Positions 18,843 through 23,821 of a DNA stretch of 64,000 nt are shown here, in pieces (positions within the stretch are counted from its first letter, which is position 1; each line of letters starts with the position of its first letter). Below the pieces are notes generated by a model. It had not been told where the DNA came from, made no database searches, and saw only the letters and a list, made by a program, of their open reading frames with translations. The position numbers and the translations under genes are program-made. Origin of the DNA: Sedimenticola thiotaurini (lineage in GTDB: Bacteria; Pseudomonadota; Gammaproteobacteria; Chromatiales; Chromatiaceae); the NCBI RefSeq assembly GCF_001007875.1, contig NZ_CP011412.1:3038001-3102000 (forward strand). The letters run 5' to 3'.

Positions 18843-19879
18843 AACAGACTGCCGTGGTGATCTGTCCGGGGCGCGGCAGTTACAATAGCCAGGAGCTGGG
18901 TTACCTGGCTCGCCATCACGCCGACCAACAGGCTCTCCTTGCCCCCATTGATGCCTATCGGCAACAGCAGGGACAAGCGGCGGTGACCGAGCTGGATCGC
19001 CTGCCCCGCTATGCGCCGGACCGGCATGCAGCGGGGGAGAACGCATCGGCGCTGATCTATGCCTGCGCCCTGGCCGACTTTGCTGCGATTGATCGGGAGC
19101 GCTACGAGATTGTCGCGGTCACCGGTAACTCCATGGGTTGGTACCTGGCCATGGCGGCGGCCGGCGCACTGGAGGCGAGGGCGGCCATCACCCTGGTCAA
19201 CACCATGGGCTCCATGATGCAGGATGGGCTGATCGGTGGGCAGCTGGTCTACCCGGTGGTGGATGAGCAGTGGCGGGCCGATCCGGCCCGGCAGGCGCTG
19301 CTTGATGAACAGCTGGAGCGGGTCAATCAGCGCCCGGATTGTCAGGCCTATCTCTCCATTCAGCTGGGCGGGTTACGGGTGATCGGTGCCAACGCTCCCG
19401 CACTGGCGGCGCTGATGGCCTCCCTGCCGCCCAGCGGGGAACGCTATCCCCTGCAACTGGCCCGGCATGCAGCGTTCCATACCCCCTTGTTGACGCCGGT
19501 GTCCCGGCGGGCCCGAAGCCAGCTGCCGGCCAGCCTGTTCAAGCGGCCCGGGCTGCCCCTGATCGATGGCCGCGGGCATATCTGGCAGCCCCTGGCAACC
19601 GATCTAAAGGCGCTGTGGGATTACACCCTGGGTAAGCAGGTGGTGGAGCCGTTCAATTTCTCCGCTGCCATCGAAGTGGCCATCAAGGAGTTCGCTCCGG
19701 ACCGGCTGATTCTGCTGGGGCCGGGAAGTAATCTTGGGGCTCCCATTGGCCAGGAGCTGATCAGGCAGCGCTGGCTGGGCATGAGCGACAAGACCGACTT
19801 CAAGCAGCGGCAGGCGGATGATCCCTTCCTGCTGGCCATGGGCCTGGATGAGCAGCGTCAGCAGGTGGTCCCGGGGTGA
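18839..19879 (+). CDS. FabD-like acyl-CoA:ACP acyltransferase (divergent)
   Basis: A 346-residue protein aligning end to end with malonyl-CoA:ACP transacylase: CPGRGS at the N-terminus, GNSMGWYLAM with nucleophile Ser98, catalytic His214 in AAFHTPLL, and PFNFSAAIEVA...LLGPGS near the C-terminus. Three conserved positions differ. The oxyanion Gln of PGQG is Arg12. The His before the Ser is Asn97. The Arg that binds the malonyl carboxylate (E. coli R117) is Met123. Malonyl specificity is therefore doubtful, and an uncharged acyl group is more likely (inference). It is translationally coupled to the E1 gene, pointing to a joint pathway for branched acyl chains. Confidence 0.8.
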   Translation: MKQTAVVICPGRGSYNSQELGYLARHHADQQALLAPIDAYRQQQGQAAVTELDRLPRYAPDRHAAGENASALIYACALADFAAIDRERYEIVAVTGNSMGWYLAMAAAGALEARAAITLVNTMGSMMQDGLIGGQLVYPVVDEQWRADPARQALLDEQLERVNQRPDCQAYLSIQLGGLRVIGANAPALAALMASLPPSGERYPLQLARHAAFHTPLLTPVSRRARSQLPASLFKRPGLPLIDGRGHIWQPLATDLKALWDYTLGKQVVEPFNFSAAIEVAIKEFAPDRLILLGPGSNLGAPIGQELIRQRWLGMSDKTDFKQRQADDPFLLAMGLDEQRQQVVPG

Positions 19880-20319
19880 AAGGTTTGAGAAACGCAAAGG
19901 GTTTCGCCCGGCCTGGCGGCCTTCGGCGAGGTACTTTTGTGGCCAAAACTGCCCAAAGCCTTTCCCGGATCAGCCTGCCCTGCGGGTACTCTGCGCTTCT
20001 CGGTCCGAGCGGCGCGTGAAAAAACTCGCCGCGTTGCGGCTCAGACCATTTCATGCTTGATTCCGCTCAGCCCTGCGATGCTCGACAGGCTGAACGGGGA
20101 GGTGCACTGATATACAGCCTGCTAATCGGCTTGTTGATCAGAAAACAGCCCCCCGGGGTTCAGGTTCCGCAAGGTAATCCGACTTCCACGCCACCGAGTA
20201 TCGCAGCCAGGGACGGAAAATGGCGTGCATCTGTCTGAGCGCAGCGAGTTATGCGCGCCCCGTCGCTGGTGAGAAACGCAGGGAACCCCGCAGGGGTGGT
20301 GTGGTGGAGCAGGGGTTTT

Positions 20320-20345
20320 GGTTACTTTTACCCGTAAAAGTAACC
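20320..20345. repeat. Palindrome B of repeat copy 1
   Basis: Perfect hairpin, arms GGTTACTTTTAC and GTAAAAGTAACC with a 2-base centre. The same element recurs at 20848-20873 and 21376-21401, and in degenerate form (three extra bases) at 21810-21836. Confidence 0.85.
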
Positions 20346-20981
20346 CGGCCCAGCGGGCCGGAACCGCTATTTAACAAAGACTTTTGGCAGCTAATAGTTA
20401 AGCAATGCTTGACCTGCCAAAGGCATTTCGCCGGCCTGGCGGCCTTCGGCTAGGTACTTTTGTGGCCAAAAGTATCCAAAAGCCTTTCCCCGGTCAGCCT
20501 GCCCTTCGGGTACTCTGCGCTTCTCGGCCCGAGCGGCGCGTGAAAAAATTCGCCGCGTTGCGGCTCAGACAATTCCACGCTTGTTTCCGCTCAGTCCTGC
20601 GATGCTCGACAGGCTGAACGGGGAGGGTGCACTGTCTCGTCCAGCCTGCAAATCGGCTTGTTCATCAGAAAACAGGCACACCGGGGTTTGGGCTCCGCAG
20701 GATGATCCGACTTCCACGCCACCGAGTATCGCAGCCAGCGACGGAAACAGGCGCGCATTTGTTTGAGCGCAGCGAGTTATGCGCGCCCCGTCGCGGGCGA
20801 GAAACGTAGGGGACCCCGCCGGGGTGGGGTGGTGGAGCGAGGGTTTTGGTTACTTTTACCCGTAAAAGTAACCCGGCCCTATGGGCCGGAACCCCTTTTT
20901 AACAAAGACTCATGGCAGCTAATGGTGAAGAAATAGTTGACCTGCGAAAGGCGTTTCGCCCGGCCTGACGGCCTTCGGCGA

Positions 20982-21005
20982 GGTACTTTTGTGGCCAAAA
21001 GTACC
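20982..21005. repeat. Palindrome A of repeat copy 3
   Basis: Perfect 24-base palindromic hairpin with arms GGTACTTTTG and CAAAAGTACC. Copy 2 has a version at 20455-20474. In copies 1 and 4 the right arm is changed to CAAAACTGCCC, which destroys the palindrome. Confidence 0.8.
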
Positions 21006-21863
21006 CAAAAGCCTTTCCCGGGTCAGCCTGCCCTGCGGGTACTCTGCGCTTCTCGGTCCGAGCGGCGCGTGAAAAAACTCGCCGCTGCGCGGCTCAGACA
21101 ATTTCACGCTTGATTCCGCTCAGCCCTGCGATGCTCGACAGGCTGAACGGGGAGGGTGCACTGTCATACAGCCTGCCAATCCGCTGGTTCTGCGTATAAA
21201 AACTTCTATTGAAGTTTGGGCTTCGTAGGATAGCCCGACTTCCGCGCCACCGAGTATCGCAGCCAGCGACGGAAACAGGCGCGCATTTGTTTGAGCGCAG
21301 CGAGTTATGCGCGCCCCGTCGCGGGCGAGAAACGTAGGGGACCCCGCCGGGGTGGCGTGGTGGAGCGGAGGTTTTGGTTACTTTTACCCGTAAAAGTAAC
21401 CCGGCCCAGCGGGCCGGAACCGCTATTTAACAAAGACTTTTGGCAGCTAATAGTTAAGCAATGCTTGACCTGCCAAAGGCATTTCGCCGGCCTGGCGGCC
21501 TTCGGCGAGGTACTTTTGTGGCCAAAACTGCCCAAAGCCTTTCCCCGGCCAGCCTGCCCTGCGATGCTCGACAGGCTGAACGGGGAGGGTGCACTGTCTC
21601 GTCCAGCCTGCAAATCGGCTTGTTCATCAGAAAACAGGCACACCGGGGTTTGGGCTCCGCAGGATGATCCGACTTCCACGCCACCGAGTATCGCAGCCAG
21701 GGACGGAAACAGGCGCGCATCTGTCTGAGCGCAGCGAGTTATGCGCGCCCCGTCGCGGGCGAGAAACCCAGGGAACCCCGCAGGGGTGGCGTGGTGGAGC
21801 GAGGGTTTTGGTTACTTTTACCCGTAATAAGTAACCCGGCCCAGGGGGACGGGTCCCGGTTTT

Positions 21864-21894
21864 AAAATAAAGAGGCAGGCCCAAGGCCTGCCTC
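21864..21894 (-). terminator. Terminator downstream of the DsrE gene
   Basis: A perfect 10-bp stem (21872-21881 with 21885-21894, GAGGCAGGCC/GGCCTGCCTC) with a CAA loop. Read on the minus strand it is followed by TTTATTTTAAAA. It ends the sigma/anti-sigma/DsrE transcript next to the repeat array. Confidence 0.8.
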
Positions 21895-21917: not shown

Positions 21918-22355
21918 TCAGGGCCTCACGTAGGTGTAGCCCTGCTCATGCAGCTCCACCAGGCGCAGCACACCCGCTTCCACCATGGTAACGCCTTCCA
22001 GCAGTTCGGGCTTCTTGCCGGTCTTGCGCTCGATACCCCGAATGGTGTTCCCGCAGGCGCTGAACTTGATATCCTGCATGGCCAGGCTGGTAACCCGTTT
22101 GCCCTGGCTGGAGTTGCTGGTGAGCAGGCTCAATCCGGGGCCGTAGGCGACCACTTCAATCTCCACGTTGTCCTGTCCCAGGGCCTTTTGCAGGTTGACC
22201 GCGTTATTCAGGGCGGTCTTCTGGGTCTGGGGATCATCGGTACTGACCTGGATCACCACCTTGTGCGGGGAGTCCTCCGCCGCCAGCAGGATCTGGGCAC
22301 TAAACAGGCCGAAACAGAGTAACAATGCCATCAGGCTGTGGTTTATGGTTTTCAT
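21918..22355 (-). CDS. Secreted DsrE-family protein
   Basis: A 145-residue protein with a Sec signal peptide (about 1-26: hydrophobic LMALLLCFGLFSAQILLA, then a cleavage-like AAE). It has a single DsrE-type domain: HKVVIQVSTDD at the start, a conserved Cys101 in FSACGNT, and a hydrophobic VTMVEAGVLRLVELHEQGYTY end. DsrE-fold proteins bind or transfer sulfane sulfur, often on a conserved cysteine, usually in the cytoplasm; this one should be periplasmic. It is clearly paralogous to the C-terminal domain of the adjacent anti-sigma protein (STDD, ACGxT, GxxYV positions match). It is the last gene of the sigma operon, 85 bases after the anti-sigma gene. Confidence 0.85.
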   Translation of the reverse strand: MKTINHSLMALLLCFGLFSAQILLAAEDSPHKVVIQVSTDDPQTQKTALNNAVNLQKALGQDNVEIEVVAYGPGLSLLTSNSSQGKRVTSLAMQDIKFSACGNTIRGIERKTGKKPELLEGVTMVEAGVLRLVELHEQGYTYVRP

Positions 22356-22440
22356 CTTTCATCCTCTCTCTTGGTTTAAATCTGCAGGGTTCGGCTCTAT
22401 TTGGGCGGCCGTTGACTGCAGTGAATGATCTGATGCTAAG

Positions 22441-23160
22441 TCAGACCTTGATATAGGCCCAGCCGGTCTGCTGGCGCCGGGTAACATAGGTGACACCGGA
22501 GCGGATAATCACCGCGTCGGGCAGTATGCGGATCTGCTCGCCGGTCTCTTTGGTCAGGCGCTCCAGGGTGCTGCCACAGGCGGCAAACACCAGGTTCGGG
22601 TAAGTCTCGCTCAACTGGTGGATACGCTCTGGAAAGGGTGAGCGATTCTGCTGCATCAGACGCAGTCCCTCATTGTTGGCTACCACATCCAGGCGCAGCG
22701 GTTTGCCGCTGGCCCGGTGTTCCTGCAGCACCAGCTCCACCTGATCCAGCAGCAGGGCAGCGTCATGCCGGTCATCGGTGCTGATGTGGAATACCACCCG
22801 GGTCTGCGCTTCTGAGGTCTGCTCCAGAGCAGCCAGCGGAGCAGTGGGTGATGGGTTGGCGGTGGTCATCCGGTCAGTCAGGGTGTGGATGGCAAACAGG
22901 GAGAGCGCCCCCAGGGCGGCGGCCGTCAAGTAGCGGGCCAGGCCCTTGCCACGCCAGGCGCGGGGGTGTGGCGTGGTCTGTTTCGGGGTGAGCGGATAGG
23001 CGGCCCGGGTCAGTTCTTTGGTGTACGCCAGTTCCACCAGGCGATCCCGTAGCTGCGTCGAACCGGTGGCTGCCTGTAGAATCTCCAGGCGATCCTGTTG
23101 GGTCAGTTGCCGATCCACAAAGGCATTCAGCTGCTCGTCGCTGTATTGCGCTGCTCTCAT
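22441..23160 (-). CDS. Membrane anti-sigma factor fused to a periplasmic DsrE-like domain
   Basis: A 239-residue protein in three parts. Residues 1-65 are a small helical anti-sigma-type domain (YSDEQLNAFVDRQLTQQDRL) without the HxxxCxxC zinc motif. Residues about 76-94 form one membrane helix (RYLTAAALGALSLFAIHTL). Residues about 118-239 form a DsrE-like domain (VVFHISTDD, Cys195 in FAACGST, GWAYIKV). The start at 23160 overlaps the sigma-factor stop in an ATGA and has GGAG upstream. This is the order expected for a cognate sigma/anti-sigma pair. The fusion suggests that the DsrE domain senses a periplasmic sulfur or redox signal (inference). I know of no named family with this architecture. 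Confidence 0.78.
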   Translation of the reverse strand: MRAAQYSDEQLNAFVDRQLTQQDRLEILQAATGSTQLRDRLVELAYTKELTRAAYPLTPKQTTPHPRAWRGKGLARYLTAAALGALSLFAIHTLTDRMTTANPSPTAPLAALEQTSEAQTRVVFHISTDDRHDAALLLDQVELVLQEHRASGKPLRLDVVANNEGLRLMQQNRSPFPERIHQLSETYPNLVFAACGSTLERLTKETGEQIRILPDAVIIRSGVTYVTRRQQTGWAYIKV

Positions 23161-23702
23161 TTTACACACTCCATAAAAGGGCGCTTGCCGCTGCTGTGTG
23201 TCGGGGCCGTTGCCAGCAGTTGCTTCAGCTTCTGCCGGGCCCGGCTCAACCGACTCATCACGGTGCCGACCGGAATACCCAGAATATCCGCCACCTCGCT
23301 GTAGCTGCAGGACTCCAGGTCCACCAGCATCAGCACCTCGCGCTGCTCCGGTGTCAGCCGGCCGATGGCCTGTCGCACCCGGTCCATGGTCTGTTGTTGG
23401 GCCAACTGTTCATCTGCACTGGCGAGCGAGGGGTCGATGCACTCCTGGAACTGATCAACCGGTTTCTGGCGGCGGCAGTGATCCCGGAAACAGTTGGCCA
23501 GGATAGAGAAGGTCCAGCGCTCCAGGGCCTGATCATCCTTGAGTGCCTCCAGCCGGGCGAGGGCGCGGACCAGTGCTTCCTGGGCCAGGTCATCGGCCAG
23601 GCTCTGTTCGCCGCACCAGGCCAGCGCCAGTCGCCGCAGGCGGGGGGTCAGTGCCGCTAAACGGCGTCGATTTTTATTTGCGGTACGCCATGCGCTGAAC
23701 AT
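23157..23702 (-). CDS. ECF-type RNA polymerase sigma factor
   Basis: A 181-residue sigma-70 family factor with regions 2 and 4 only. Region 2 spans about 25-90 (SLADDLAQEALVRALARLEAL, WTFSILANCFRDHCRR). Region 4 spans about 112-165 (LTPEQREVLMLVDLESCSYSEVADILG given here in part, then IPVGTVMSRLSRARQKLKQLL). It is co-encoded with the anti-sigma/DsrE fusion, overlapping by four bases. A GGAATAAA/CGTCTTA element lies just upstream and may be its own target promoter, giving autoregulation. Confidence 0.93.
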   Translation of the reverse strand: MFSAWRTANKNRRRLAALTPRLRRLALAWCGEQSLADDLAQEALVRALARLEALKDDQALERWTFSILANCFRDHCRRQKPVDQFQECIDPSLASADEQLAQQQTMDRVRQAIGRLTPEQREVLMLVDLESCSYSEVADILGIPVGTVMSRLSRARQKLKQLLATAPTHSSGKRPFMECVK

Positions 23703-23730
23703 GAAGCGGGCCCTTTGCTGTTATTGTGGG

Positions 23731-23759
23731 TAAGACGCACTGGGCGATGGATTTATTCC
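23731..23759 (-). promoter_or_regulatory. Candidate ECF-sigma autoregulated promoter
   Basis: On the minus strand, GGAATAAA is followed after 14 bases by CGTCTTA, about 28 bases before the sigma-factor ATG. The GGAA-type -35 and CGTC-type -10 with this spacing are the form recognised by many ECF sigma factors, which commonly control their own operon. No sigma70 hexamers of similar quality are visible in this gap. Confidence 0.5.
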
Positions 23760-23821
23760 ATGTTTTTTCCGGCCACAGATTTCTGCTGCCAGACCCGCTG
23801 GGGTGTTCACTCCGGAGTTGG

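Follow-up and report, generated by a model that had tools for sequence, protein, structure and literature searches.

The known systems closest to the one reported here are extracytoplasmic function (ECF) sigma factors that answer sulfur compounds. In the passages cited, the pairs RpoE4-EcfR4 and RpoE1-EcfR1 of Sinorhizobium meliloti, and SigE and RpoE1 of Starkeya novella, respond to sulfite, taurine or tetrathionate and control sulfite-oxidising enzymes (PMC3511301, PMC6180224, PMC6527743). Such sulfite-responsive pairs are described as releasing the sigma factor ‘by an as yet unknown mechanism’ (PMC6527743), and the sensing of external sulfur by the regulators of sulfur oxidisers has been called poorly understood (PMC11582611). 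ECF factors also affect sox genes in Arcobacter butzleri, in a paper whose cited part makes no mention of DsrE (PMC3445524). Here we analyse a 64,000-nucleotide stretch of the Sedimenticola thiotaurini genome (NZ_CP011412.1, positions 3,038,001 to 3,102,000; hereafter the window), which carries an operon of three genes: an ECF sigma factor, an anti-sigma protein fused to a DsrE domain, and a secreted DsrE paralogue. On balance, it is probable that these genes form an autoregulated, ECF26-like sigma/anti-sigma switch that would read periplasmic sulfur chemistry through one cysteine, Cys195, of the fused domain.

All three genes lie on the minus strand. The sigma factor gene (23157..23702) encodes 181 residues, is ECF26-like and scores above the Pfam cut-offs for Sigma70_r2 and Sigma70_r4_2. 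It overlaps the fusion gene (22441..23160, 239 residues from the ATG) by the four bases ATGA, and the gene of the secreted paralogue follows (21918..22355; 145 residues, with an N-terminal hydrophobic helix and then the DsrE fold). A preliminary description of the interval 21918-23760 had named these three same-strand genes and the ATGA overlap, and the checked coordinates confirm both; it overlooked the predicted sigma promoter that also lies inside that interval, at 23759-23731. Its numbering of Cys195 (codon 22576..22578) in the fusion and of Cys101 (22053..22055) in the secreted partner is correct, and the two share an alignment column. The motif that it gave as GxxYV in the anti-sigma protein is actually GWAYIKV at the C-terminus, with I and not V.

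An AlphaFold2 model of the fusion protein, built on 41 sequences, places three helices (residues 8-15, 21-32 and 35-54) in the N-terminal anti-sigma domain (about residues 1-55; 22996..23160), a long putative membrane helix at residues 75-95 (22876..22938) and a DsrE fold at 120-238, where the block predicted local distance difference test score is 95-98. The predicted periplasmic DsrE domain (residues 119-239; 22441..22806) has MTH1491 (1l1s) as its top PDB match (Z 18.6, root mean square deviation 1.6, 110 aligned). It also matches ST0148, YchN, TusD and DsrE, and the secreted partner has the same set of matches (1l1s, Z 20.3). The domain order proposed earlier for the second protein (anti-sigma region, one membrane helix, DsrE domain) and the paralogy of the third, a secreted protein with matching motifs, both hold in the light of these folds. 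Sequence families are less telling, as the anti-sigma protein of the window has no Pfam or NCBIfam match and the secreted partner reaches 21.0 bits on PF02635 against a cut-off of 22.7; among relatives, some partner homologues pass (48.1 and 47.4 bits), and one fused relative scores 22.0. Foldseek with the whole fusion model returned nothing beyond the DsrE half, in a search that barely tested the anti-sigma half, and HHalign matched the anti-sigma domain to S. meliloti EcfR6 with a probability of 94.9 over profile columns 4-47. In 42/42 fusions, the two domains are separated by a hydrophobic segment, with a mean of 1.2 or more over 19 residues, and the balance of lysine and arginine favours an inside N-terminus in 39 of the 42, the orientation that the positive-inside rule also predicts for the window's helix. 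Both observations support the extracytoplasmic DsrE domain that the preliminary description had assumed.

Of 190 relatives' genomes queried with the fusion, 58 gave matches, part of them to the DsrE half only. The fusion itself occurs in 42 of the 190, including the window's own, which rules out a layout peculiar to this genome. A fusion common across the phylum is ruled out as well: near full-length matches occur in 3 of 398 sampled genomes, again including the window's own, and the other matches listed cover the anti-sigma part or the DsrE part alone. Plasmid matches of the fusion, 16 records, all fall on the DsrE part. In the named-genome scan, the nearest relatives are Sedimenticola selenatireducens DSM 17993 (72% identity) and Sedimenticola hydrogenitrophicus (67%).

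Linkage to the ECF gene was followed in two sets of loci, which share genomes and whose counts are not additive. The first comprises 42 fused reading frames extracted with their flanks; G005, G007 and G032, whose fusions are truncated at contig ends, and G114, whose fusion lies in two frames, are outside these 42 frames and were counted as fusion genomes. A complete same-strand ECF gene stands directly upstream of 36, with the 4-bp overlap in 33 of them, and a further two have an ECF gene truncated at a contig end, giving 38 of 41 testable fusions (one is untestable). The second, named set holds 81 fusions at 79 loci, kept from 149 candidates and ranging over Sedimenticola, Thioalkalivibrio, Acidiferrobacter-type genomes, Gallionellaceae, Sulfuritalea, Rhodocyclaceae and Cupriavidus sp. 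BIS7; both gamma- and betaproteobacteria thus carry the fusion. All 79 testable fusions of this set have the ECF gene directly upstream, 78 by the distance rule and one (L157) that failed the rule only through an over-long frame call and passes once trimmed, with L109 and L120, where the fusion starts at a contig edge, left out. The preliminary description had set linkage to an ECF gene in other genomes as a check on its proposal, and both sets pass it: fusion and adjacent ECF gene occur together beyond chance in dozens of genomes. A secreted dsrE gene stands beside 59 of the 81 fusions, downstream in the same direction (n = 32) or divergent upstream (n = 27), and a Porin_O_P-like gene is present at 14 of the 27 divergent loci (three by Pfam, the rest by our own profile). 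Two loci (L121, 3757-7199; L154, 3831-7217) carry two full ECF/anti-sigma-DsrE pairs in tandem, one pair with a divergent dsrE and a porin-like gene and the other with a downstream dsrE.

The sigma genes share a promoter motif. Across 105 regions upstream of them, which are not independent because the genomes are related, word-pair counting found GGAATA-N16-CGTC in 75, compared with a highest count of 6 for any pair in three shuffled sets, and GGAAT-N16-18-CGT is present in 90 of the 105. The predicted promoter of the window's operon, GGAATAAATCCATCGCCCAGTGCGTCTTA (23731..23759, minus strand), has GGAATAAA as its -35 box and CGTCTTA as its -10 box at a spacing of N14; it is the top site in the window, at 33.0 on a position weight matrix built from 76 sites. 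Promoters of this type are nearly identical to the published ECF26 promoters of S. meliloti RpoE1 and RpoE4: rpoE1 has GGAATAAATCC...TGTCTTA and rpoE4 GGAATAAG...CGTCTC (PMC6180224, Table 1), given at greater length as GGAATAAATCCATAGCCCTCCGTGTCTTA for the rpoE1 operon and GGAATAAGCG...CGTCTC for rpoE4 (PMC6180224). The sorT promoter is GGAATTTT...CGTCTC (PMC6180224, Table 1), and the consensus of sorT, sorA and rpoE4 is GGAAT / CGTC, with sulfite as the signal (PMC6527743). Another ECF26 member, RpoE6 of S. meliloti, shares 42% identity with the window's sigma factor over 168 residues; its gene, identified via its published promoter, is among the 60 plasmid records listed out of 838 that match. 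Two ECF26 traits are thus present, the GGAAT(AAA)/CGTC promoter and a one-helix anti-sigma protein encoded downstream.

Predicted targets of the sigma factor reach beyond its own operon in relatives. Of 27 divergent loci, 24 have a site of at least 12 bits on the side of the dsrE gene; among 300 random stretches of 320 bases taken from these loci, 5 have one, and these may include true sites. Downstream dsrE genes have a strong predicted site of their own in 4 of 31 cases. Scanning 112 loci at 15 bits, with nine first-set loci that recur in the named set left out, gave 159 sites (1 site in 1.29 Mb of shuffled sequence, one strand): sigma genes account for 97, dsrE genes for 41 and the anti-sigma frame for eight, and 13 are unassigned. 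Among the eight, three are genuinely there (L043, L046 and L055) and five are sigma promoters masked by an overlapping frame. The unassigned sites include five at nameable genes, two at DsrE genes in a shadow frame and six that look like chance. Predicted sites stand before soxC in a run of soxC, a c-type cytochrome gene, soxY, soxA and soxX in Cupriavidus sp. BIS7 (the only case of soxC under such a promoter among the loci looked at), before a SoxY gene in the relative G096, and before a run of a DsrE-like gene, SoxB and a second DsrE; further sites precede a YeeE-type (Sulf_transp) gene and a porin gene.

The pattern GGAATAAW-N13-14-CGTCTW was searched in 43 other fusion genomes and gave 37 sites in 26 genomes (reversed control, 7). 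Twenty lie at sigma genes, as expected because the pattern was derived from sigma promoters, and the others at an adjacent dsrE or porin gene (n = 6), at dsrE elsewhere in the genome (n = 3), at sox genes (n = 4) and at other places (n = 4; inside a reading frame, at a contig end, before a tetratricopeptide repeat protein and before a DUF302 protein). The sox sites precede soxX in G088 and G114, soxB in G115 and soxY in G096; soxX is followed by soxA in both genomes and, in G114 (tested), also by soxZ. A DUF302 gene with a sigma-promoter site (L284, 4549-5016; 17.7) belongs to a genome that has several DsrE genes. Solitary dsrE loci (n = 15) have a site of at least 12 bits before the gene in 2 of 4 cases in fusion genomes (L075 with 17.5 and L087 with 14.5, L082 and L084 having none) and in 0 of 11 in genomes where the fusion query found no fusion. 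In the window's own 3.96-Mb genome, the extended motif occurs with zero mismatches once, at the operon described here, and with two mismatches at 3 sites against 5 in the control.

A connection with sulfur, which was a guess in the preliminary description, is now independently supported by the ECF26-type promoter, by the predicted sites at dsrE and sox genes and by gene co-occurrence: soxB is present in 38 of 42 fusion genomes and in 72 of 148 others (Fisher, 3.8e-7, kinship not corrected). In the window's genome, a SoxB gene and two DsrA-type genes score above their family cut-offs and there are two neighbouring DsrE-family genes; the Sedimenticola host is therefore taken as a sulfur oxidiser. 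These data also bear on a quite improbable alternative, in which the domain would be a general thiol-stress sensor whose Cys195 answers oxidants (peroxide, hypochlorite), metals or electrophiles, with an indirect link to sox. Other ECF/anti-sigma pairs do respond to oxidants, as paper titles also indicate, and part of the family has a thioredoxin-domain neighbour. In the window this is a DUF255/DsbH protein of 706 residues (PF03190; 23822..25942, minus strand), outside the core; homologues of it occur at 12 first-set loci and in several other genera of the family. However, the nameable predicted targets are dsrE, sox, porin and a sulfur-transport family gene, with no oxidant defence among them, the promoter class is that of sulfite-responsive sigma factors, and the frequency of soxB in fusion genomes also speaks against a general stress role.

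The candidate sensing residue is strictly conserved. The Cys195 position is invariant in 41/41 fusions, and exactly one cysteine occurs in the last 135 residues, at the DsrE active-site column, in 111/111 distinct fused domains (sequences identical over these 135 residues were entered once). One cysteine per domain leaves no internal disulfide, so the chemistry would be that of a persulfide or a sulfite adduct, or else a bond that links the sensor to its partner or a transfer from one to the other. The same column is cysteine in 44 of 49 downstream partners, in 42/42 divergent partners and in 15 of 16 solitary DsrE proteins (one gap), and within the first 50 residues, 85 of 91 partners have a hydrophobic stretch that resembles a signal peptide. 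In a tree of 73 DsrE domains, built on few columns and with forks often unresolved, all 26 sampled fused domains form one clade (100/100) on a long branch of 1.01 changes per column, apart from free DsrE. The partners are spread over several DsrE lineages, requiring at least four changes for downstream and at least three for divergent partners (starred branches). The sensor domain thus probably arose once and was then paired with secreted DsrE proteins of differing origin, a pattern that argues for a functional link between the two.

Two further explanations meet this evidence. DsrE-family proteins are sulfur carriers, so the fused domain could be part of a membrane-tethered sulfur-transfer enzyme and no sensor, the anti-sigma domain answering another signal. 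This seems very improbable for a domain that forms its own long-branch clade apart from free DsrE and that is the sole folded part predicted beyond the membrane helix. A protein-ligand receptor is another alternative, one we regard as unlikely: the DsrE domain would be a docking module, the signal would be the amount, oligomer or redox state of the secreted partner, and Cys195 would be chemically idle. There is a model for it in RseB, which modulates RseA. A dsrE gene in the expected place at 59 of 81 fusions, itself a predicted sigma target, fits docking, as does the pairing of partners of several lineages with a one-clade sensor, which seems selected; the DsrE relatives DsrEFH and TusBCD have moreover been solved as multi-subunit complexes, according to their structure titles. 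Docking alone would not need a cysteine invariant in 111/111 domains, though, and 22 of the 81 fusions lack a partner where one is expected, five of these lying at loci that a contig end truncates on one side.

The reading that we favour is the sulfur-responsive switch. At the level of sequence, it is defined by gene layout, domain order, a single active-site cysteine and a shared predicted promoter at the sigma operon, the divergent dsrE genes and the sox genes of several relatives. In the absence of signal, the cytoplasmic anti-sigma domain would hold the sigma factor at the membrane. A periplasmic sulfur species, either sulfane sulfur such as a persulfide or else sulfite, thiosulfate or tetrathionate, would then modify or load Cys195, possibly with the secreted partner passing sulfur to it or within a mixed DsrE oligomer. 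This change would free the sigma factor, directly or through regulated proteolysis, and the freed factor would raise expression of its own operon, secreted DsrE included. In some relatives, further targets would be a Porin_O_P porin, soxX and the genes that follow it, soxC, soxY, soxB or a YeeE-type transporter. By capturing sulfur or handing it on, the secreted DsrE would also feed back on the sensor. A stronger form of this reading can be put forward only tentatively: the DsrE half may itself be the direct extracytoplasmic receptor of sulfane sulfur or sulfite, its cysteine being persulfidated or thiosulfonated, alone or via the partner, and switching a sigma factor that drives Sox genes in several lineages. 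If true, this would be a transmembrane sulfur receptor with no need for sulfur import.

Several observations weigh against the proposed switch or restrict its reach. The soxB association takes no account of kinship, and that of dsrA, likewise uncorrected, is weaker (34/42 versus 84/148, p 0.004). A lone conserved cysteine is usual in free DsrE proteins as well, as in the solitary ones above, and is therefore no proof of sensing by itself; furthermore, five of the 49 downstream partners have no active-site cysteine or an X there, and five have no cysteine past residue 30. The fusions at L043, L046 and L055 have no ECF gene directly upstream, the promoter standing directly before the anti-sigma gene instead. 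The 22 fusions without a dsrE in the expected place count here too, and in some lineages (9 loci) the locus lacks dsrE and has a beta-propeller gene. A sigma tree of 38 rows with six references, poorly resolved, does not place the window-type sigma factors with RpoE6, which pairs with RpoE5 (ECF15); we therefore use ‘ECF26-like’ only. Finally, the sox and dsr regions of the window's genome have no good site (best 12.3 bits, no -35 box), and these genes were rejected as targets, the sole other GGAATAAA-type site lying inside a gene. The predicted regulon in Sedimenticola is therefore the operon itself, and control of Sox is not predicted there.

Should the switch operate as proposed, it may be how these bacteria sense sulfur outside the cell, and a role would follow for some of the secreted DsrE proteins encoded beside sulfur-oxidation genes. 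The proposed single-cysteine DsrE sensor, a promoter recognisable by eye and predicted targets that include sox genes of relatives together make sulfur sensing and sigma release plainly testable.

Other features of these loci are recorded here as separate observations. In Sedimenticola, the DUF255/DsbH gene is on the same strand as the sigma promoter and 5' of it. Between dsrE and the gene ending at 19879, a unit of roughly 528 bases is repeated in tandem about four times at window positions 19895-21880, the copies being 69-94% alike. The dsrE-less loci L127, L135, L140-L142, L163, L167, L173 and L180 have a secreted beta-propeller-like gene in common by sequence clustering; in L167, the sole one tested, it is a Lactonase (PF10282) and overlaps the end of the fusion. 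In L041 (9404-10692), L042, L043 and L048, from several genera, a second, distant ECF gene stands after the dsrE partner and on its strand; the next gene in L041 encodes a DUF3379 protein. The Sulfuritalea-type loci L145, L158, L162, L174, L175, L177 and L178 have near the pair genes that group in one cluster, of which the one in L145, the sole one tested, is TauE/SafE sulfite-exporter-like.

Among the matches listed from the open-licence literature, supplements excluded, no description of an anti-sigma/DsrE fusion was found; the preliminary description, too, knew of no described system with this layout. The folds of MTH1491, ST0148, YchN and DsrE-TusD are common to the sensor domain and its partner, but those proteins are free-standing. 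On plasmid pRUNSL04 of Runella slithyformis, a DsrE gene lies beside a c-type cytochrome, a porin, a YeeE/YedE gene and a metallophosphatase/5'-nucleotidase-family gene, the last SoxB-like by position only; unlike the window locus, the stretch shown has no sigma/anti-sigma pair. As far as the cited passages describe it, SoxR with SoxT1B in Hyphomicrobium denitrificans likewise places the transcription of sulfur-oxidation genes under the control of sulfur compounds (PMC11582611). There, however, SoxR is a repressor and the YeeE-like membrane protein SoxT1B transduces the signal (PMC11582611), whereas the sensor domain described here is predicted to lie outside the membrane.

Our results agree most closely with the S. 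meliloti and Starkeya pairs, which have in common with the present system the GGAAT / CGTC promoter class, a small regulon, a sigma gene followed by that of a one-helix anti-sigma protein, and a connection with sulfur oxidation. Autoregulation is known for S. meliloti rpoE1 and rpoE4, and the operon here likewise has its own predicted promoter. A YVTN beta-propeller is encoded in the likely target operon of SnRpoE1 (PMC6527743), and the Acidiferrobacter-type loci that lack dsrE also have a beta-propeller gene. The systems differ in their outputs: the main targets in S. meliloti and Starkeya are sorT and sorAB, whereas secreted DsrE or sox genes are predicted here, and no sulfite-oxidising enzyme gene was seen beside the pair among the reading frames at 17-29 kb of the window (by eye, partly with Pfam). 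They differ also in the part exposed outside the membrane, in that the periplasmic domain of EcfR has some similarity to RsiW (PMC6180224) and the C-terminal domain of the fusion has the DsrE fold and is not RsiW-like. The Sedimenticola locus is, in this comparison, an ECF/anti-sigma pair of known type with a new sensor domain.

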